From the NCBI GenBank assembly GCA_951812745.1, contig OX638327.1, positions 1,725,914-1,789,913 on the forward strand: a stretch of DNA of 64,000 nucleotides. Reading direction: 5' to 3'. This document shows positions 33,245 to 45,945 of this stretch, piece after piece. Within the stretch, counting starts at the first letter, position 1, and each line of letters opens with the position of its first letter. The stretch comes from an uncultured Nitrospirales bacterium. GTDB taxonomy: Bacteria; Nitrospirota; Nitrospiria; Nitrospirales; UBA8639. Under the pieces are notes generated by a model. The model saw only the letters and a list, made by a program, of their open reading frames with translations. It had not been told where the DNA came from and did no database searches. The translations under genes were made by a program, and so were the position numbers.

Positions 33245-34633
33245 TCAGTACCGGTAGGTCTCCGGCTTGTACGGGCCTTCGACCGGCACGTTGATGTAAG
33301 CGGCTTGCTCCTGGGTGAGTTTGGTCAGGGTCCCGCCGAACCCGCGCACCATATGGCCGGCCACTTCCTCATCGAGCTTCTTCGGCAGCACTTCGACCGT
33401 CACGGGCGCGCCCGGGGTGTCGGCGAATTTCTTCCCGAATAAGTAAATTTGCGCGAGGACCTGGTTGGAAAAGGACCCGTCCATAATCCGGGAGGGATGA
33501 CCGGTCGCATTGCCCAGGTTCACCAGGCGCCCTTCGGACAAGAGGAGCAGGTGGTCGTTGGCGAGCGCGCTGCGATAGATTTTATGAACTTGCGGCTTCA
33601 CCTCTTCCCATTCCCAATGTTTGCGCATGTAGGCCGTATCGATTTCATTGTCGAAGTGGCCGATATTGCAGACCACGGCACCCGGTTTGAGGGCTTGCAA
33701 CATGGCGGAATCACAGACGTTGTAATTGCCGGTGGACGTTACGATCAGGTCCGTATTGCCCAAAAGCGCTTTGTTCAGATCTTCGACTTTCCCCGTATTG
33801 ATGCCGTCGTTGTAAGGCGACACGACTTCAAAGCCGTCCATGCAGGCCTGCATCCCGCAAATGGGGTCGATTTCCGCCACACGCACGATCATGCCTTCCT
33901 GGCGCAGGGATTGCGCCGACCCTTTGCCGACGTCGCCATACCCGATCACCAGGGCCTTCTTCCCGGACAACAAATGGTCCGTGCCGCGCTTGATCGCATC
34001 GTTCAAACTGTGCCGGCACCCGTATTTATTATCGTTTTTCGATTTCGTGACCGAATCGTTCACGTTGATGACCGGCACTTTCAGGGTGCCGTTGTCCATC
34101 CGCTCCTGAAGGCGATGCACCCCCGTGGTGGTCTCTTCCGTGATGCCGTGGATTTTGTCCAACATCGCCGGGTACTTGTCATGGAGCATCAGGGTCAAAT
34201 CGCCCCCGTCGTCCAGGACCATGTTGGCATCCCAGGGACGGCCATCCTTCACAATGGTTTGTTCGATGCACCAGTCATATTCTTCCAGCGTCTCGCCTTT
34301 CCACGCGTACACCGGGATACCCCGGCTCGCGATCGCGGCCGCGGCATGATCCTGTGTAGAGAAAATGTTACAGGAGGACCACCGGACTTCCGCCCCCAAC
34401 TCCATCAGGGTCTCAATCAAGACGGCCGTCTGGATCGTCATATGAATACACCCGAGAATCCTGGCGCCTTTGAGGGGTTGTGTCGAACGATATTTTTCCC
34501 TCAACGCCATCAGCCCGGGCATCTCCGTTTCGGCGATTTGAATCTCTTTTCGACCCCAATCCGCCAGGCTGATATCCGCCACCTTATAATCACACACCGG
34601 TTTTTCCAGTTGTGTAGCCATACCCATATTCAT
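33245..34633 (-). CDS. ahcY: Adenosylhomocysteinase
   Basis: The 462-residue enzyme hydrolyses S-adenosylhomocysteine to adenosine and homocysteine with tightly bound NAD. The Rossmann motif is [11 protein letters not shown]. Active-site segments include [31 protein letters not shown] and the terminal KPETYRY that completes the partner subunit's NAD site. ATG 34633 is chosen because AAGGGAG precedes it by four bases; an earlier ATG at 34660 lacks this. It lies 37 bases after metK on the same strand, making a two-gene methyl-cycle operon. Confidence 0.97.
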
Positions 34634-34670
34634 CGCTCCCTTCTGCTTGGACTCGACCAACCCCTCAACC

Positions 34671-35828
34671 TCACAGATGCACGTCGACGGATTGCTTCAA
34701 AATCGAGGTCTTATCCGTTTTTTCCCAGGTGAACCCCGGGCCGCTCCGCCCAAAATGCCCGTAGGCTGCCGTCTGTTTATAAATAGGACGTCGCAGTTTC
34801 AAATGATCGATGATGCCACGCGGGGTCATCGGAAAATGCTTTCTGATCAATTTATCGATGACCTCGATCGCGACTTTCTCCGTCCCTTTCGCATCGACGA
34901 GCACGGAAACGGGTTCCGGCACCCCGATCGCGTACGCCAACTGCACTTCACATTTCTCGGCCAATTTCGCCGCCACGATATTCTTGGCAATATACCGGGC
35001 CATATACGACGCCGACCGGTCCACCTTGCTGGGATCCTTTCCGGAAAAGGCGCCGCCGCCGTGGCTTCCCACGCCCCCATAGGTATCCACAATGATCTTG
35101 CGCCCGGTCAACCCGGTATCGCCCATGGGTCCCCCCGTCACGAACCGGCCCGTCGGGTTGATGTGAAACGTCACCCGGTTCGGGTTGAAGATCCCTCTCG
35201 GCATCACGGGTTTAATGACTTTTTCCTTGATCTCCTGCTCGATTTTCTTGGACGTCACCTTGTCACTATGCTGGGTGGAGACCACGATCGTATCGATCCG
35301 AACCGGTTTCCCGTTCTTGTATTCGATGGTCACCTGAGATTTCCCGTCGGGACGCACCCAGGGCAACAGGTTCGTTTTGCGCACCTCAGCCAGGCGTTTC
35401 GTCAGGCGATGGGCCAACACGATCGGCATGGGCATCAATTCGGTCGTCTCGTTGGTGGCGTAGCCGAACATCAACCCCTGATCACCCGCCCCCCCCGTAT
35501 CCACGCCCATGGCGATATCGCCCGACTGGGCGTCGATCGCCGTCAGCACCGAGCAGGTGCGGTGGTCAAACCCCCAGGTGGCATCGCTATAGCCCACGTC
35601 ACGAATGGTTTGCCGAATGATATCGGGGATTTCCACGTACGCCTTCGTGGAAATTTCTCCCGCCACGAACGCCAAGCCGGTCGTGAGAATCGTCTCACAC
35701 GCCACCCGGCAGTTTTTATCTTTCGCCATAATGGCATCCAGGATGCCATCGGATATTTGGTCGGCAATCTTGTCCGGATGCCCTTCGGTCACGGACTCGG
35801 AGGTAAACAAAAAGTTCTGTTGACTCAT
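34671..35828 (-). CDS. metK: S-adenosylmethionine synthetase
   Basis: The 385-residue enzyme makes SAM from methionine and ATP. Motifs are [22 protein letters not shown] at the N-terminus, [13 protein letters not shown] (signature 1) and [23 protein letters not shown] (signature 2, P-loop-like). GGAAGGG lies about eight bases before the ATG. It heads the metK-ahcY operon. A leader ending in an intrinsic terminator precedes it, so transcription attenuation is possible. Confidence 0.98.
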
Positions 35829-36379: not shown

Positions 36380-36775
36380 ATGATGAGCACGCTGACAGAT
36401 AGAATTCGAGCCGCCCGGAAAAAGGCGGGCTTGACCCAATCGGACGTCGCCAAGGCACTCCGCATCTCGGCGTCTGCGGTCAATCAGTGGGAGCAAGGCT
36501 TCACTAAAAGCATCAAATTGAATCATTTCTTCGCCCTCGCCAGGTTACTGGGCCAGGACCCGCAATGGCTGGCGACCGGCAAAGCGGACGTCCGAGCGCG
36601 AGCGACAGCGCTGATGCCCCAGACGCCGGACACGCCTGCCCCCACCAGCGAAGAGAGAGCACTCCTGCACTATATTCGCCAAATGCCCGACACCCTGCGA
36701 AAACTAGTACTCCGGTTCCTGGGAGGATTGAGCAACCTCTCCATGTCTCATGACAAACCCAGCCACGGAGCCTGA
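36380..36775 (+). CDS. XRE family transcriptional regulator, paralogue 1
   Basis: A 131-residue protein with a helix-turn-helix at residues 7-60 (RIRAARKKAGLTQSDVAKALRISASAVNQWEQG) and a short C-terminal helical region (EERALLHYIRQMPDTLRKLVLRFLGG). Such small HTH proteins resemble prophage or plasmid repressors. A GGAGG lies at 36363-36367, 12 bases ahead of the double ATG. About 70% of the HTH region is identical to the gene at 37029, so the two arose by duplication. Confidence 0.87.
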   Translation: MMSTLTDRIRAARKKAGLTQSDVAKALRISASAVNQWEQGFTKSIKLNHFFALARLLGQDPQWLATGKADVRARATALMPQTPDTPAPTSEERALLHYIRQMPDTLRKLVLRFLGGLSNLSMSHDKPSHGA

Positions 36776-36966
36776 TTTTTCTCTGCCCCTCCCCCCTCCC
36801 CCTTCTGCCCTGTTGTCATCCCTAACGCGTGTTCTCGATATCCTTGATTGAGGATCTAACCGAGAATCCAGCGTCTTGGCCGTGGGAGCTTTCGAACAAG
36901 GCGGCATGCCCCGCCTGCCCGGCACAGCGTCACAAAAAACTTCACATAAAATTGTTTTATTCAAGC
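36776..36966. repeat. Dispersed repeat between the XRE paralogues
   Basis: A degenerate member of the GTCATCC...AATCCAGCGTCTT family occupies about 36815-36880. No gene is seen. Confidence 0.5.
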
Positions 36967-37028
36967 ATACTTATTTCAAAATGGCGGATACTTGGTCCAT
37001 TCTGGAAGAAGGAGGGGGAAGACCCGTC

Positions 37029-37385
37029 ATGAATACGTTGACAGAAAGAATTCGAGCCGCCCGGAAAGAGGCGGGCCTGTCCCAGGCGGACGTCGCCAAG
37101 GCGCTCCGCATCTCGGCGTCTGCGGTCAATCAGTGGGAACAAGGTTTCACCAAAAACGTCAAACTGGAGCATTTCTTCACCCTCGCCGCGCTGCTGGGCC
37201 AGGACCCGCGATGGCTCGCCACCGGCAAGGTTCCCCCGCGCGCGCGGGAATCGGTGGGCAAGTCGCCGAAACCGGACCATGTGGCCGTCACCAGCGAAGA
37301 AAAAGCTTTGCTGCACTATATCCGCCGAATGTCCGGCAAGCGACGCAGATCGCTCCTGCAATTCCTCAGAGCCCTCGAAGACTGA
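37029..37385 (+). CDS. XRE family transcriptional regulator, paralogue 2
   Basis: ATG 37029 aligns with the start of the upstream paralogue. The 118-residue protein shares its HTH (RIRAARKEAGLSQADVAKALRISASAVNQWEQG) and the GQDPRWLATGK and SEEKALLHYIRRM segments. A GGAGGGGG lies 12-14 bases upstream. Promoter sequences of the two genes also share an ATACTTAT word. Targets are unknown; autoregulation or cross-regulation is likely. Confidence 0.87.
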   Translation: MNTLTERIRAARKEAGLSQADVAKALRISASAVNQWEQGFTKNVKLEHFFTLAALLGQDPRWLATGKVPPRARESVGKSPKPDHVAVTSEEKALLHYIRRMSGKRRRSLLQFLRALED

Positions 37386-37755: not shown

Positions 37756-39813
37756 ATGTATAAAACCATCTACATCCCGGTCGACAATTCGGACCATTCC
37801 AATACGGCCGTTGACCTGGGTGTGCGGTTGGCACAGGAATTTGGATCAAAAATCGTCGGCAGCCACGTCTACGCCGCCAAGATGCACGACAAGCGGTTCA
37901 AGCAGATGGAAGCCGGGTTGCCCGAGGAATATCACGACGAAAAAGAACTCGACCGCCAGCGCAAGATTCACGACTCCCTCATCACGCGCGGGCTCCAGAT
38001 CATCACCGATTCCTATCTCGACTACGTGGATCAGCGGTGTACCGAGTCCAATCTCCCCCTGGAACGCCGGTCCCTGGAAGGTCGCAACTGGAAGGTGTTG
38101 GCGGAAGACATCAATACCAACGCCTACGACCTGACCATTATGGGCTCGCTGGGAGTGGGCGCCGTGAAGGATTCCGTGATCGGCAGCAATACCGAACGGG
38201 TCCTGCGCCGGGTCCGCAATTCGGACATGTTTATCGTGAAAGACCTGAAGCCCATGAACGGGGGGAAAATCGTCGTGGCCGTGGACGGCAGCCCCTACAG
38301 CTTCGGCGGGCTGAAAACCGGGCTGGCCCTGGGGAAGGCGCTGAACAAGCCGGTGGAAGCCATTTCCGCGTTCGATCCGTATTTCCATTATGCCGCGTTC
38401 CACAGCATTTCCGGGGTCCTGAACGAAGAGGCCGGCAAGGTCTTTCGCTTCAAGGAACAGGAAAAGCTCCACGAGGAAGTCATCGACAGCGGCTTGGCCA
38501 AAATCTACCAGTCGCATCTGGATATTTCCCGCGAAGTGGCCCAGGAGGAAGGCTCGGATATCCGCACGACCCTCCTGGACGGCAAGGCGTTTGAAAAAGT
38601 GCTGCAGTACGTGCGCAAGGAACAACCCTGGCTGCTGATCGTCGGGCGCATCGGCGTGCACAGCGACGACGACATGGACATCGGCAGCAACACCGAGAAC
38701 CTGCTCCGGGCGGCCTCGTGTAACGTCCTGATTTCCAACAAGAAATTCGTGCCGCCCATCGACACCCAGGCGGAATACACCATCGCCTGGACCGAGGAAG
38801 CCCTGCTGCGGATGGAAAAAGTGCCGGTGTTCGCGCGTGGCGTCGCCAAGACCGCCATTCACCGCTATGCCATTGAAAAAGGGCACACCATCATCAGCAA
38901 TTCGGTGGTCGATGACGCGGTCGGCGACATCCTGCCGAAAGGCGCCATGGATGCGATGAAAGCCCTGGGCGGCCAGCTCGACGACGCGGGCATCGACCGC
39001 AATCAAATGCAGGCCGACGACGCCGTGGCCCAGGACCTGATGGGCTCGACCCTCAGCGGCATGGTCAACCAGGTGGTCGAGGAAACGGAGCCCGTGGCGA
39101 ATCCGGCGGTAAGCGCGTCCACGCAATCCTATCTGGACCGCATGGCTCAGCCCTATTACGTCTGCGACGGATGCGGCTACATCGGAAAAGGCGCCCAACC
39201 CGTGAAGTGCCCGATTTGCGGCGGAGCGGGCGACGGATTCAAAACGGTCGATAAAAGCATGTTCGACGCCGCGGCCAAGCAGGAAGGGGTCCTGGAAACG
39301 CAACTGGCGTATGACGACGTACCTATGCAATGGACCAAGGACGCCAAGGAAGCCATCCGGGCGGTCCCTGCGGGCTTCCAACGCCGCCGCGCCAAAGCCA
39401 AGATCGAAAAGACCGCGAGAAAACTCGGCATGACCACGATCACTCTGGAGTATGCCTCGCCCATGATTGATGAAGCCGCCAACGAAGATTACACCCCGAT
39501 TTTCGCCAACAAGGAGGCGGAAGTGGAACAACCTGCCCCTCAGCCGAACGGACCGGCGCCGATACCCGACTCGCCCTACGATTGGGAGCCCGAAGCCTTG
39601 CAACGGTTGGAACGCGCGCCCGAAGGGTTCATGCGCGATTGCACCCGGGCCCTCATCATCAAGCACGCCGACAAGCTGGGGACCACCCGGATCACCATCG
39701 ACGTGGCGAACGAAGGGATCGAGCAGGCCAAGCAGACCATGGAAGAGGCCATGAAGTCCGGCAACGTCAAGGACATCATCGCCAAACTGACCGGCGCGGG
39801 CGCTCAGCAATAG
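37756..39813 (+). CDS. Tandem universal-stress protein fused to three PCP_red domains
   Basis: The 685-residue protein has two Usp domains (residues 1-163 and 168-330), each with the ATP-binding pattern GxxGxG/GSNTE (SLGVGAVKDSVIGSNTERVL; RIGVHSDDDMDIGSNTENLL). A PCP_red domain follows (about 342-390), a linker, a rubredoxin-like knuckle (CDGCGYIGKGAQPVKCPICGG, 470-490) and two more PCP_red domains (524-570 and 608-655). PCP_red is the small C-terminal domain of the BchB subunit of dark protochlorophyllide reductase. No photosynthesis gene is present. It is followed by a radical SAM protein with its own PCP_red domain. A tetrapyrrole or redox-sensing role is an inference from these domains. 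Confidence 0.88.
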   Translation: MYKTIYIPVDNSDHSNTAVDLGVRLAQEFGSKIVGSHVYAAKMHDKRFKQMEAGLPEEYHDEKELDRQRKIHDSLITRGLQIITDSYLDYVDQRCTESNLPLERRSLEGRNWKVLAEDINTNAYDLTIMGSLGVGAVKDSVIGSNTERVLRRVRNSDMFIVKDLKPMNGGKIVVAVDGSPYSFGGLKTGLALGKALNKPVEAISAFDPYFHYAAFHSISGVLNEEAGKVFRFKEQEKLHEEVIDSGLAKIYQSHLDISREVAQEEGSDIRTTLLDGKAFEKVLQYVRKEQPWLLIVGRIGVHSDDDMDIGSNTENLLRAASCNVLISNKKFVPPIDTQAEYTIAWTEEALLRMEKVPVFARGVAKTAIHRYAIEKGHTIISNSVVDDAVGDILPKGAMDAMKALGGQLDDAGIDRNQMQADDAVAQDLMGSTLSGMVNQVVEETEPVANPAVSASTQSYLDRMAQPYYVCDGCGYIGKGAQPVKCPICGGAGDGFKTVDKSMFDAAAKQEGVLETQLAYDDVPMQWTKDAKEAIRAVPAGFQRRRAKAKIEKTARKLGMTTITLEYASPMIDEAANEDYTPIFANKEAEVEQPAPQPNGPAPIPDSPYDWEPEALQRLERAPEGFMRDCTRALIIKHADKLGTTRITIDVANEGIEQAKQTMEEAMKSGNVKDIIAKLTGAGAQQ

Positions 39814-39827
39814 AGAGTCGCCACCGT

Positions 39828-41186
39828 ATGGGCAAATCACTCCCTGTCATCAATGCCCCGCAAGGGGAAGGACTCGACCCCCGCGTGACCGGGTTTACCT
39901 CTCCCGGGCCCGGTGACGGCCGGACCGTCGATGATTTCAAGCCCTACCTCGTCGCCCTGAACCTCACCAAACGCTGCAACCTGAAATGCGACCACTGTTA
40001 TCTGGACGCCACCACCAAGGCCGGCGGGGGCTCCGACGAGCTCTCGACCGAAGAATGTTATCGGCTGATCGACCAGATCGCCGAGGTCAATAAAGGCTGC
40101 CTGCTGGTCATCACCGGTGGCGAACCCCTCGTCAGACCGGACATCCTGGACATCGCCCGTCACGCCGTGGGCCAAGGGTTCATGGTCGTCTTCGGCACCA
40201 ATGGGATGCTGATCAACGATCGCCTGGCCCAAGAACTCGTCGAAATCGGCGTCATGGGCATGGGCATCAGCATCGACTCCCTCGACGCGGGCAAACATGA
40301 CGCGTTTCGCGGCATACCCGGGGCCTGGGAAGCCGCGGTGGCAGGGATCGAAGCCTGCAAACGGAACGGCCTGCAGTTTCAGGTGCACTTCAGCGCCCAA
40401 CCCATGAACTACAAGGAACTGCCGGACGTGATCGACTGGGCCCACGGCCTGGGCGCCCGCGTGCTGAACGTCTTCTTCATGGTGTGCACGGGCCGCGGCG
40501 AGGAACTGACGGACATTACCCCCGAGCAGTACGAGGAGGTGCTGGCCTTCCTGGTGGACTCCCAGGACCGGTACTCGGACATGCTGGTGCGCGCGCGGTG
40601 CGCCCCGCACTTCAAACGCCTCGCCTATGAAAAAGACCCCGACTCCCCGATCACCAAGGCCCAGGGCTACATGGGCGGGGGCTGCCTGGCCGGGACGAAC
40701 TACGCGCGGGTTACGCCCAACGGCGACCTGACCCCCTGTCCCTACATGCCCTTGTCCGCCGGGAACATCCGAGACACGAGTTTCGTGGACCTGTGGGAAA
40801 AGTCGGACATTTTCGACTCGTTCCGGTACCCCCACCTGAAGGGCAAATGCGGCGACTGCGAATACAGCGAGATCTGCGGTGGCTGCCGGGCCCGCCCCTA
40901 CGTGGATCACGGGGACTGGATGGACGAGGACGAATGGTGCCTGTACACGCCCAAGGGCGGAGAAAAAATCCAGGTCGCGTTCAACGTGCCCGAGGAGGTT
41001 GAGGTGGAATGGGACGACGCCGCGCAGACGCGGTTGAGCCGGATCCCCTACTTCCTGCGCGCCATGGTGAAAAAAGGCACCGAACGGCACGCCCGCGAGC
41101 ACAACATCCCGCGTATCACCGTCGAGTTGATGGAAGAGCTTCGCCAAAAACGCTTCGGTAACGAGAAACCGGTGTTCAAATTCTGA
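39828..41186 (+). CDS. Radical SAM/SPASM protein with C-terminal PCP_red domain
   Basis: ATG 39828 lies 15 bases after the previous gene. The 452-residue protein has the radical SAM motif CNLKCDHC (C50, C54, C57), TGGEPLVRPDI, and a SPASM-type region (CLAGTNYARVTPNGDLTPCPYMP...CGDCEYSEICGGCRARPY) binding extra Fe-S clusters. A PCP_red domain closes it (about 393-445, VEWDDAAQTRLSRIPYFLRAMVKKGTERHAREHNIPRITVE). The core resembles AhbC/AhbD and NirJ, which act on siroheme-derived tetrapyrroles; PqqE-like peptide-modifying enzymes are the alternative. Linkage with a second PCP_red protein supports tetrapyrrole chemistry. Confidence 0.9.
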   Translation: MGKSLPVINAPQGEGLDPRVTGFTSPGPGDGRTVDDFKPYLVALNLTKRCNLKCDHCYLDATTKAGGGSDELSTEECYRLIDQIAEVNKGCLLVITGGEPLVRPDILDIARHAVGQGFMVVFGTNGMLINDRLAQELVEIGVMGMGISIDSLDAGKHDAFRGIPGAWEAAVAGIEACKRNGLQFQVHFSAQPMNYKELPDVIDWAHGLGARVLNVFFMVCTGRGEELTDITPEQYEEVLAFLVDSQDRYSDMLVRARCAPHFKRLAYEKDPDSPITKAQGYMGGGCLAGTNYARVTPNGDLTPCPYMPLSAGNIRDTSFVDLWEKSDIFDSFRYPHLKGKCGDCEYSEICGGCRARPYVDHGDWMDEDEWCLYTPKGGEKIQVAFNVPEEVEVEWDDAAQTRLSRIPYFLRAMVKKGTERHAREHNIPRITVELMEELRQKRFGNEKPVFKF

Positions 41187-41713
41187 TGGATGCCCTCCTG
41201 GCCACGCTGTCCGATCTCAATAAAATCATTCCCATTGTCAATCACTGGTTGCACCTGCTCTCGGCCGTCGTGTGGATCGGCGGGCTCGCTTTCCTGGTCA
41301 TGGCGGTGACGCCGGGGCTCAAATCGTCCGTGCCCAGGGAATACATCAAACCCATCTGCGACGTTTTCTACAAACAGTATCGCAAGGTGGTCGGCATCCT
41401 GCTCGTGGTGATCCTGTTCACCGGCGGCATCAACCTGCATTACGTCAGCGAAGCCATGCAAATGCAGACAGGCTTCGGCCTGTCCAACAACGCCAAATAT
41501 TTGACCGTCTTCTTCATCAAGCTCACCCTGGTGCTCGGCATCCTGACCTTATTCCTCTATACCGTCATCTTCCGCATCGAACCCACGGGCGACGAAGACG
41601 AACAGGAAAAAGAAGAACAGATCGTCGAACCCATCCCCTTCCAAAAAGCCGGCCTCTGGATAGGCGTCCTCATCATCCTCTGCGCCGCCGCCATGAAACA
41701 CCTGCATTTGTAA
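41186..41713 (+). CDS. CopD-like four-helix membrane protein
   Basis: The start ATG overlaps the stop of the radical SAM gene by one base, so the genes are coupled. The 175-residue protein has four membrane segments, with HWLHLLSAVVWIGGLAFLVMAV typical of the CopD/DUF2269 group whose conserved His residues (H20, H23 and the pair near the C-terminal MKHLHL) can bind heme b or copper. An acidic loop (GDEDEQEKEEQ) joins helices 3 and 4. It may be the membrane heme partner of the two upstream proteins. Confidence 0.82.
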   Translation: MDALLATLSDLNKIIPIVNHWLHLLSAVVWIGGLAFLVMAVTPGLKSSVPREYIKPICDVFYKQYRKVVGILLVVILFTGGINLHYVSEAMQMQTGFGLSNNAKYLTVFFIKLTLVLGILTLFLYTVIFRIEPTGDEDEQEKEEQIVEPIPFQKAGLWIGVLIILCAAAMKHLHL

Positions 41714-41923
41714 GTTCCCCTTCCCCTTTCTGTCATCCTCGACATTTTTAATCGAGGATCCAGTGTCTTTTCTCTTGTCTATGCTTTTTGTCTGTCATCC
41801 TCGACGCTTGTCCCCGACTTGATCGGGGATCCGGCGTCTTTTCTTTGCCTTTTGCAATGGTCAGCCAAAGAGTGACAACATCGCCTGTTGACAAAAGGCA
41901 CACAACATGAGACGGTTTCGTTT
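41714..41923. repeat. Two tandem dispersed palindromes
   Basis: Copies of the GTCATCCTCGAC...GGATCC(A/G)G(T/C)GTCTTTT family lie at about 41733-41770 and 41793-41845. They mark the left edge of the toxin-antitoxin and defence island. Confidence 0.8.
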
Positions 41924-42193
41924 ATGCAGGAATTTGACTGGGACGATGAAAAGAATGCGTTTCTTGAAAAGACACGAGGCGTCAGTTTTGAAGACGTCGT
42001 CTTTCACATCCAGAACGGCGACGTCCTGGATATTGTCAGGCATCCCAATGAGTCCCGCTATCCGAACCAACGGATCATTGTGCTGAACGTGGAAGGGTAC
42101 GTGTACTTGGTCCCGTACGTGAAGCAGAAAGGAACACGGTTTCTCAAAACCATTATCCCAAGCAGGAAAGCGACAAAGGAGTACCTCAAATGA
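41924..42193 (+). CDS. brnT: BrnT family toxin
   Basis: ATG 41924 gives the standard BrnT opening MQEFDWDDEKNAFLEKTRGVSFEDVV. The 89-residue protein has the RelE-like fold with the conserved R in NESRYPNQRIIVLNVEGYVYLVPYV and the basic C-terminal helix. It is a ribonuclease toxin. The stop overlaps the start of the antitoxin gene by four bases, the usual BrnTA arrangement. Confidence 0.92.
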   Translation: MQEFDWDDEKNAFLEKTRGVSFEDVVFHIQNGDVLDIVRHPNESRYPNQRIIVLNVEGYVYLVPYVKQKGTRFLKTIIPSRKATKEYLK

Positions 42194-42471
42194 AAGACTC
42201 CCTCAAATTAGACCGGGAAGAAGTAAAGATCCTTCAGGACTTTGAACGCGGGGAATTGACGAGCATCAACAACTTCAAAGACGCTAAGCGTCAACTGGAA
42301 GAGGCGGCCCGCGAGTTCCTTCAAAAGGACAAGCGAATCAACATTCGGATCTCGTCCCGCGACTTGAGCAGCCTGCAAAAAAAGGCCGCAAAGGAAGGGA
42401 TGCCCTACCAAACCCTCATTTCAAGCACCCTCCACAAATTCGTGACGGGGAAATTGAAAAGTATCGAGTAA
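42190..42471 (+). CDS. brnA: BrnA-like antitoxin (CopG/RHH)
   Basis: A 93-residue protein whose C-terminal half (KRINIRISSRDLSSLQKKAAKEGMPYQTLISSTLHKFVTGKL) is a ribbon-helix-helix DNA-binding domain of the CopG/BrnA type. The N-terminal half should wrap the BrnT toxin. It overlaps brnT by four bases and probably represses their promoter. Confidence 0.9.
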   Translation: MKDSLKLDREEVKILQDFERGELTSINNFKDAKRQLEEAAREFLQKDKRINIRISSRDLSSLQKKAAKEGMPYQTLISSTLHKFVTGKLKSIE

Positions 42472-44227: not shown

Positions 44228-44872
44228 ATGACCATACCGGTACCGGATGAGCCCAGAACCTACCACATCGTCCATATAGACCGGCTCGCCTCCATCGTAG
44301 CAGACGACTGTCTTTGGTGCGACGCGAAGATGGCAACGAGAGCGCCAAGTGGCACGACAATCGGCATGAACGAGATCAAGCAGCGGCGTCGCACGAATGC
44401 CCTGAACAGCCATCCGGACGTGTGCGTGGGCGATTGCGTGCCATTCTATTTCTGCCCGCGATCCGTCATGCTCTATGTCATCTATCAGGCTAACCATCCT
44501 GAATTGGAGTATCGCGATGGACAAGACCCGATTGTGCATCTGGAAGCAGATTTGCGGCAGACTGTGGTTTGGGCCGAGCGACAGCAACGGCGTTGGGCAT
44601 TTACGACGTCAAATGCCGGCTCTCGGTTCTTTGACGACTATGCCGATCTCGCCGACTTGGACAAGGTCGACTGGGACGCCGTGCAAGCCAATAACTGGCA
44701 AGGCTGCAAGGATGGTAAGCAGGCGGAATTCCTCGTCGAAGCCTCATTCCCGTGGGAGATGGTGTCGCGGGTTGGTATCAAGTCACAAGGGATGTATGCT
44801 AAAGTGCAGCGTGTGTTGAATGGGGCGCGCCATCGCCCAACCGTAGAAGTCAAGCCGGACTGGTATTACTGA
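44228..44872 (+). CDS. darT: DarT DNA ADP-ribosyltransferase toxin
   Basis: A 214-residue DUF4433 protein. The opening YHIVHIDRLASIVADDCLWCDAKM, the NAD-binding ARTT-like H and R residues, and the region RTNALNSHPDVCVGDCVPFYFCPRSVMLYVIY (with VxVGDxVPFYFxPRSxMLY) are diagnostic. The catalytic glutamate falls in QAEFLVEASFPW (AEFLVE). DarT attaches ADP-ribose to thymidine in single-stranded DNA and is reversed by DarG. The pair acts as a toxin-antitoxin and anti-phage system. DarG starts 23 bases downstream. Confidence 0.96.
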   Translation: MTIPVPDEPRTYHIVHIDRLASIVADDCLWCDAKMATRAPSGTTIGMNEIKQRRRTNALNSHPDVCVGDCVPFYFCPRSVMLYVIYQANHPELEYRDGQDPIVHLEADLRQTVVWAERQQRRWAFTTSNAGSRFFDDYADLADLDKVDWDAVQANNWQGCKDGKQAEFLVEASFPWEMVSRVGIKSQGMYAKVQRVLNGARHRPTVEVKPDWYY

Positions 44873-44895
44873 TCTAGGGAAGGAGGATCCCGACA

Positions 44896-45945
44896 ATGAT
44901 CGAATACAAGACTGGCGATATTCTTGCCGAAGAAGCCGAAGCCCTGGTCAATACCGTCAACTGCGTGGGTTTCATGGGGCGCGGCATCGCGCTACAATTT
45001 AAAAAAGCCTTCCCCGAGAACTTCAACGCCTACGTTACTCGATGCAAGCGCAATGAGATGCAGCCCGGGCACGTGTTCGTCTTCGAGACGGGCGAAACGG
45101 TTCCGCCGCGCTACATCATTAACTTCCCCACCAAACGGCATTGGCGAGGCAAAAGTCGCATTGAGGACATTGAATCCGGGTTGGCATCATTAACGAAGGC
45201 GATCCGGTCGCACGACATCCGTTCGATTGCTATCCCGCCGCTCGGCAGCGGTTTGGGCGGATTGCACTGGCCGGAGGTGCGTGCCCGCTTAGAGGCGGCG
45301 CTGAAGGCATGCGAAGACGTCAAGGTCGTGATATTTGAGCCGGGCGGTGGACCGGTGGACGAACGAGCCAACCGTTCGAGTGACATTCCGAAAATGACGG
45401 CCGCGCGAGCTGCGCTGGTCGGGCTGATGGATCGCTATCGTTTGGCCCTACTTGACCCATTCGTGACGCTACTGGAAGTGCACAAGCTCATGTATTTCAT
45501 GCAGGAAGCTGGCGAGCGGTTGCGGCTCAAATATCAAAAGGCAGCGTATGGACCGTACGCCGAGAATCTACGGCACGTTCTGCAAAGAATTGAAGGCCAT
45601 TACATCTCGGGGTACGCCGATGGCGGTGATGCGCCGGAGAAGCAATTGGAACTGGTGCCGGGTGCCATTGAAGTTGCGACCGACTTCTTGGCGGGTCAGC
45701 CGGAAACGCACCGACATTTCAATAAAGTCGTTGATCTCATCGAAGGATTCGAGTCGTCATTCGGCCTGGAACTTCTGTCCACGGTCCACTGGCTCGCCAG
45801 CAAAGAACAAGCCAAAACCCTGGATGATGTGGTGCAACGCACCTACGCATGGAATGACCGGAAGAAGCAATTTTCTCGGCGTCAAATTGCGCTTGCGGTT
45901 GATGTGCTGTCACAGAAGAAGTGGATCGACACCCTGAACACATGA
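44896..45945 (+). CDS. darG: DarG macrodomain antitoxin
   Basis: The 349-residue protein has an N-terminal macrodomain (MIEYKTGDILAEEAEALVNTVNCVGFMGRGIALQFKKAFP; GSGLGGLHWPEVRARL) that removes ADP-ribose from thymidine. Its C-terminal domain (about 170-349; HKLMYFMQEAGERLRLKYQKAAYGPYAENLRHVL) binds and neutralises DarT. GGAGG precedes ATG 44896. The operon order darT-darG and full lengths indicate an intact module. Confidence 0.96.
   Translation: MIEYKTGDILAEEAEALVNTVNCVGFMGRGIALQFKKAFPENFNAYVTRCKRNEMQPGHVFVFETGETVPPRYIINFPTKRHWRGKSRIEDIESGLASLTKAIRSHDIRSIAIPPLGSGLGGLHWPEVRARLEAALKACEDVKVVIFEPGGGPVDERANRSSDIPKMTAARAALVGLMDRYRLALLDPFVTLLEVHKLMYFMQEAGERLRLKYQKAAYGPYAENLRHVLQRIEGHYISGYADGGDAPEKQLELVPGAIEVATDFLAGQPETHRHFNKVVDLIEGFESSFGLELLSTVHWLASKEQAKTLDDVVQRTYAWNDRKKQFSRRQIALAVDVLSQKKWIDTLNT

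Follow-up and report, generated by a model that had tools for sequence, protein, structure and literature searches.

A conserved Usp-radical SAM-CopD-like gene cassette with PCP_red domains from Nitrospirales as a candidate for tetrapyrrole processing, and its link to cytochrome bd-like oxidases

Introduction

Among described systems, those closest to the genes reported here are the haem b synthase AhbD, whose gene is colocalised with hemY/hemH/hemQ or with ahbABC (PMC10548856), NirJ and NirJ2 of haem d1 biosynthesis, and BchB/ChlB of dark protochlorophyllide reductase. We analysed a stretch of 64,000 nucleotides (the window; positions 1,725,914 to 1,789,913 of contig OX638327.1, assembly GCA_951812745.1) from an uncultured Nitrospirales bacterium, whose genome is a single contig of 2,346,994 bases rated 100% complete. 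At window positions 37756 to 41713 an operon of three genes encodes a tandem universal stress protein (Usp, gene 1), a radical S-adenosylmethionine (SAM)/SPASM enzyme (gene 2) and a CopD-like membrane protein (gene 3), with PCP_red domains on the first two. We propose, with a probability of about 0.55, that these genes form the central part of a hitherto undescribed cassette for tetrapyrrole processing, through which a cytochrome bd-like oxidase module is provided or fitted with a haem-type cofactor.

Such bd-like oxidases of nitrite-oxidising and related bacteria are poorly understood and have remained enigmatic; they and their terminal oxidase (TO) clusters have been reported before (PMC3578206, PMC6606698, PMC9040806), and a cbb3 type is present in Nitrospira marina (PMC8115632). 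The term 'radical SAM' is absent from the main text of the first three papers, and their accessible parts describe no tetrapyrrole cassette. For Methanomicrobiaceae, a combination of USP with LI-POR_suB-like_C was mentioned as an unusual automatic annotation (PMC12159084). No account of the present gene set was found in the open-access literature searched, which is not proof of novelty; the cassette is real, conserved and apparently undescribed.

Results

The open reading frame (ORF) listing bears out the coordinates and gene order given by the original prediction, an earlier reading of the bare sequence. Gene 1 (37756..39813, 685 aa) and gene 2 (39828..41186, 452 aa), both assigned by Pfam, NCBIfam and structure models, are 14 bases apart, and gene 3 (41186..41713, 175 aa; Pfam and helix prediction) shares one base with gene 2 (TGA/ATG), spacing and overlap again being as described there; all features of the operon lie on the plus strand.

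Pfam recognised Radical_SAM (82 bits) and SPASM (39.5 bits) in gene 2. The radical SAM domain (39960..40439) contains the CxxxCxxC motif (C50, C54, C57), invariant in our alignment, and the SPASM domain (40683..40862, residues 286-345) contains C286, C304, C341 and C344, with further SPASM cysteines (C350, C353, C371) beyond the Pfam domain and C258 of a CAPH motif upstream. The PCP_red domain of the enzyme (41010..41144; 56 and 60.9 bits in two scans) matches by sequence the PCP_red domain of BchB/ChlB, for which the structures 2kru, 2l09 and 2xdq have been solved. Best-scoring curated families were NirJ2 (TIGR04055, 330 bits) and AhbD (TIGR04545, 317 bits), both below the cut-off of 500, and the first clearly peptide-linked family was WgkB at rank 9 with 139 bits; the same ranking, NirJ2 and AhbD first with similar scores, holds for members of other lineages. 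The structure model (predicted local distance difference test, pLDDT, 82) matched PqqE, SkfB, SuiB and anSME in the PDB, and the fold search led to the radical SAM/SPASM family in general only, with no ligand identified.

Related loci were collected by scanning the genome_contigs collection with short patterns and keeping the best 80 of 567 confirmed candidates (the named loci; L, G and f numbers below denote loci, genomes and families). Radical SAM, SPASM and CAPH cysteines are kept in 43/43 PCP_red-bearing rows of the alignment. At the V(C/P)TGR position 40/43 of these rows have Cys, versus Pro in 13/14 others; one scan pattern includes this Cys, which biases its conservation in rows found that way, and Cys is also present in 14/15 rows fetched without that pattern. 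A tree built with a quick method only did not place the PCP_red-bearing enzymes in one clean clade, a PCP_red-less AhbD-like group being nested among them with moderate support, and a single origin is therefore not claimed.

PCP_red was found on 74/78 radical SAM-cluster proteins of the named loci, and three of the four proteins without it are archaeal. Partner genes were counted in the 74 PCP_red-bearing loci, the other four being excluded; three of the 80 loci (L125, L179, L193) were uncounted as they gave no radical SAM ORF under the ORF rule used. The protoporphyrinogen oxidase gene hemY lies directly downstream in 23/74 loci, mostly with a 4-base overlap, and its identity was confirmed in the two loci checked (TIGR00562, 258 and 291 bits; cut-off 97.85). 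In L110 the gene before the Usp gene is HemL (620 bits, cut-off 527). HemY or the oxidase set described below accompanies the cassette in 32/74 loci, and both do so in 13.

A bd-like oxidase is encoded in 19/74 loci, a membrane cytochrome c in 17 and a cytochrome c-EB_dh protein in 16, at least one of the three being present in 22/74. This linkage extends over five phyla, and the linked oxidases match PF01654 (two checked) and align with two bd-like oxidases of the host genome. When radical SAM enzyme and oxidase were searched in the same 295 Nitrospirota genomes, the oxidase was present in 113/113 genomes of the window's class and the enzyme in 108/113, including seven with two-piece matches counted as carriers (one inspected, L114). 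Outside this class, where PCP_red-bearing status was assigned from E <=1e-80 and a match running through the PCP_red region, with no separate domain scan, 21 genomes had both, four the enzyme only, three the oxidase only and 154 neither (Fisher p about 1e-20, a value overstated by the relatedness of the genomes); genomes without a match, 24 in the enzyme search and 138 in the oxidase search, were counted as negatives. Within each of the families f29, f30 and f33, some genomes have both genes and others do not. As a separate observation, Usp-radical SAM-HemY genes adjoin an arsenite-oxidase-like molybdenum enzyme and/or di-haem peroxidase genes in L167 (checked), L174, L184 and L189 (assigned by sequence cluster); we take the molybdenum enzyme to be iodate-reductase-like.

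The cassette is kept across the order. Its gene order was found in 18 of 20 loci fetched, at 46-97% identity; the radical SAM gene is present in all 20, the Usp and CopD-like genes in 18 each, and both exceptions belong to the divergent family f4. A survey of PCP_red with radical SAM genes, proposed along with the original prediction, gave PCP_red in 59/59 relatives (usually 10-12 copies per genome), the enzyme at E up to 1e-60 in 69/78 relatives (80-99% identical within f1 and f3) and a PCP_red-bearing enzyme in 74 of the 80 named loci. Among the best 80 of 567, the highest identity to the gene 2 product (96%) is seen in L126, recorded as 'Nitrospirales bacterium'; several records from Nitrospira and relatives come next at about 82%. 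The named loci come from Nitrospirota, Nitrospinota, Planctomycetota including anammox genera, Poribacteria, Pseudomonadota, Chloroflexota, Gemmatimonadota, Myxococcota and Thermodesulfobacteriota. Of the PCP_red-bearing loci, 47/74 include a Usp gene, which in 41 immediately precedes the radical SAM gene on the same strand; 17/74 include a CopD-like gene.

Gene 1 matches Usp in two stretches (109 bits, cut-off 24) and PCP_red in three (106.9 bits, cut-off 32.5). The Usp domains (residues ~1-163, and 38266..38733, residues 171-326; Pfam and alignment) both contain G-2x-G-9x-G-S by inspection, presumably the nucleotide motif. They are followed by PCP_red 1 (38788..38919, residues 345-388, 52.3 bits), a rubredoxin-like CxxC...CxxC knuckle (39148..39243, residues 465-496), PCP_red 2 (39331..39450, 41.6 bits) and PCP_red 3 (39583..39708), which alone reaches 31.4 bits and is just below the cut-off. 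The knuckle scored 18.9 bits with RUBY_RBDX (cut-off 26.5) in Pfam and 29.7 bits with a nigerythrin knuckle model in NCBIfam. Hidden Markov models (HMMs) in this way support what had been predicted for genes 1 and 2, tandem Usp, knuckle, SPASM radical SAM and three plus one PCP_red copies, with the knuckle below the Pfam cut-off. The model of gene 1 shows a tandem Usp fold resembling Rv2623 and other tandem Usp structures, and no ligand was identified by fold search. An alignment of 29 sequences from several phyla shows H37, H44, E52 and H72 (first half) and D207, H211, E236 and H239 (second half) among the invariant residues, suggesting a putative ligand site in each half.

The CopD-like assignment of gene 3 holds weakly (PF05425, 24.2 bits, gathering cut-off 32.1); four membrane helices are predicted, and H20, H23 and H174 are invariant.

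Five genes of the host genome together encode 12 PCP_red stretches, of which 10 exceed the cut-off. The earlier statement that chlorophyll genes are missing stands for BchB only: the complete genome encodes five PCP_red proteins, and BchB is not among them; when BchB models were run on gene 1, the best-scoring stretch was a PCP_red stretch. The three further PCP_red genes encode a ribbon protein (L009), a four-copy protein (L010) and a second ribbon protein (L011). The first adjoins an Mrp/NUBPL-type ATPase gene, a pair kept in 9/9 further loci. That of L011 is clustered with DUF420 and two bd-like oxidases in the order methyltransferase-DUF420-PCP_red-membrane protein-bd-like, which is kept in 8/9 further Nitrospirales loci; the best curated match of this methyltransferase is BchU (80 bits, far below the cut-off of 276).

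Nitrospirales possess HemY and HemQ-family genes (HemQ family in 40/41) and, by inspection, hemE. HemN was over the cut-off in 6/26 genomes searched, all six proteobacterial, which corresponds to 6/7 proteobacterial carriers tested. General haem b supply is therefore an unlikely role for the cassette, since HemQ or HemN is encoded elsewhere in most carriers tested, and the extra operon HemY besides existing haem genes indicates a separate product or a dedicated supply. In Nitrospirota relatives (L216-L225), an AhbD-like radical SAM gene without PCP_red (452 bits to AhbD) adjoins hemE and, in some loci, is also near hemH and hemY (in L217, ferrochelatase and HemY were assigned with HMMs and hemE by eye), in agreement with the colocalisation cited above. 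Ferrochelatase (PF00762) was found in 0/36 genomes of the window's family versus 19/23 in sister families; in the host genome (C1:901000-919000, L202) and in L203-L207, hemE and hemY are still neighbours without hemH between them, and HemQ-family genes are kept. The cassette as a replacement for ferrochelatase was rejected, as it is equally present in relatives keeping HemH. PF17805, the AhbA/B-NirDLGH family of siroheme decarboxylase partners, gave 0 matches in the host genome (control matches in 4/14), which makes the siroheme branch considered in the original prediction unlikely there.

On the minus strand upstream of the operon, inspected translations resemble a SAM synthetase (metK-like, 34671..35828, divergent) and an adenosylhomocysteinase (ahcY-like, 33245..34660); both genes also adjoin the cassette in L047 (G024), from the same family as the window. 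Two similar tandem XRE-type helix-turn-helix genes lie between these and the operon (36380-36775 and 36876-37385). Downstream, a BrnT-like toxin gene just under the Pfam cut-off precedes a small gene, perhaps for its antitoxin (41888-42471), and a gene pair at 44228-45945, judged by eye, is presumably of the DarT/DarG type with a macro domain. The loci read from f2 and f3 have, directly upstream of the Usp gene, an slr0320-related gene for a B12-binding radical SAM protein (446 bits, cut-off 775; for example L052:11532-13187, minus strand), which is absent from that place in the window.

Discussion

Gene content, kinship, the linkage to HemY and the association with the bd-like oxidase, in neighbourhood as well as across genomes, are direct observations; from them we infer substrate, reaction and carrier roles as follows. 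HemY, whose gene is part of the operon in Proteobacteria and in some Nitrospirota and lies elsewhere in the genome in Nitrospirales, would supply an oxidised porphyrin into which iron is inserted. The PCP_red-bearing radical SAM enzyme, a relative of AhbD and NirJ2, would then modify this iron porphyrin by radical chemistry; as with AhbD and NirJ, a propionate side chain is the most likely site. The tandem Usp protein with its invariant His/Glu-rich sites, extended by PCP_red repeats in many lineages, may hold and pass on the tetrapyrrole, perhaps with ATP, and the CopD-like membrane protein could aid transfer to the membrane oxidase. The tetrapyrrole pathway that had been predicted is thereby supported in its direction, by the kinship to NirJ2 and AhbD, by HemY in 23/74 loci and by HemL in one. 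Its suggested end point, a membrane haem protein, stays conjectural; the CopD-like protein does have conserved His residues. A more tentative extension, for which the odds are clearly lower, is that in nitrite oxidisers, anammox bacteria and other lithotrophs the bd-like oxidases hold a novel haem or chlorin made by the cassette through alteration of an iron porphyrin by the radical SAM enzyme, and that the PCP_red repeats on Usp and ribbon proteins are a module for tetrapyrrole holding and delivery.

Several observations weigh against the proposed role. In 42/74 PCP_red-bearing named loci, no HemY and no bd-like set was found nearby, and the HemY link is confined to Pseudomonadota and one Nitrospirota locus of the 74 (and L101 outside the set); in Nitrospirales the cassette itself adjoins neither HemY nor the oxidase. 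The genomes behind the co-occurrence are related and not independent, and molybdenum enzyme genes are often near the cassette too. Tetrapyrrole binding by PCP_red alone was not found shown in the literature examined, and the Usp partner is without PCP_red in several lineages (L106-L113), so that PCP_red is not essential on this protein.

If the radical SAM enzyme were a further AhbD-type decarboxylase, turning coproheme supplied by HemY (CgoX-like) and ferrochelatase into ordinary haem b, its 317 bits to AhbD, the PCP_red-less AhbD-like enzymes beside hemE (in some loci also near hemH and hemY), and the described colocalisation of ahbD (PMC10548856) would be readily explained. We nevertheless consider this unlikely, because the HemQ family in Nitrospirales and HemN in most of the proteobacterial carriers tested make a second route needless there, and because the score is under the AhbD cut-off and Cys takes the place of Pro in V(C/P)TGR. 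Less probable again is maturation of molybdenum enzymes (NXR, Idr/Aio-like) or of their Fe-S clusters in place of a tetrapyrrole. Molybdenum enzyme genes near the cassette in L108, L167, L188 and L194 and the ATPase beside the ribbon-PCP_red protein would fit such a role, but HemY and HemL as partners and the kinship of the radical SAM enzyme to haem enzymes do not, and many loci have the oxidase set with no molybdenum enzyme recognised nearby.

A sensor or storage system, in which Usp-PCP_red senses free tetrapyrrole or the redox state and the radical SAM enzyme is an accessory, is suggested by the Usp family, the rubredoxin-like knuckle and the report of universal stress proteins, which may or may not include the present one, among the most increased proteins in low-oxygen Nitrospira marina (PMC8115632). 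It is made improbable by the operon coupling to HemY and by how very strongly the catalytic residues of the radical SAM enzyme are conserved. Finally, gene 2 as a peptide-modifying SPASM enzyme, that is, a maturase of ribosomally synthesised and post-translationally modified peptides (RiPPs), would agree with the SPASM domain and with PqqE, SkfB and SuiB as nearest solved folds. We regard it as very improbable, as peptide families score far under NirJ2 and AhbD and the 14-base gap and 1-base overlap leave no room within the operon for a precursor gene, the flanks not having been searched for peptides <80 aa.

With tetrapyrrole processing as the preferred role, the co-occurrence of the cassette with the bd-like oxidase offers a concrete handle on the identity of the oxidase cofactor, and PCP_red would, if this is true, gain a role outside chlorophyll synthesis. 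Compared with known systems, the cassette shares the radical SAM/SPASM fold, the CAPH and SPASM cysteines and HemY as operon partner with AhbD (TIGR04545) and AhbD-like haem operons, but differs in the extra PCP_red, Cys for Pro in V(C/P)TGR, the Usp partner, the link to a bd-like oxidase and a score under the cut-off. NirJ2/NirJ of haem d1 biosynthesis is the best-scoring curated family for gene 2, yet likewise below its cut-off, and the NirDLGH-type PF17805 of that pathway is not in the host genome. BchB/ChlB shares PCP_red with genes 1 and 2, whereas its nitrogenase-like domain is not among their Pfam matches, PCP_red being used here as a repeat on other proteins. The tandem Usp proteins Rv2623, UspE and TTHA0350 have the same fold as the gene 1 model and, by inspection, a nucleotide motif; unlike them, gene 1 combines PCP_red repeats with an invariant His/Glu-rich site in each half. 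The linked oxidase set, in turn, is of the kind found in the bd-like oxidase/TO clusters of Nitrospira, Nitrospina, anammox bacteria and Manganitrophaceae, with similarity to PF01654 and c-type and EB_dh partners.

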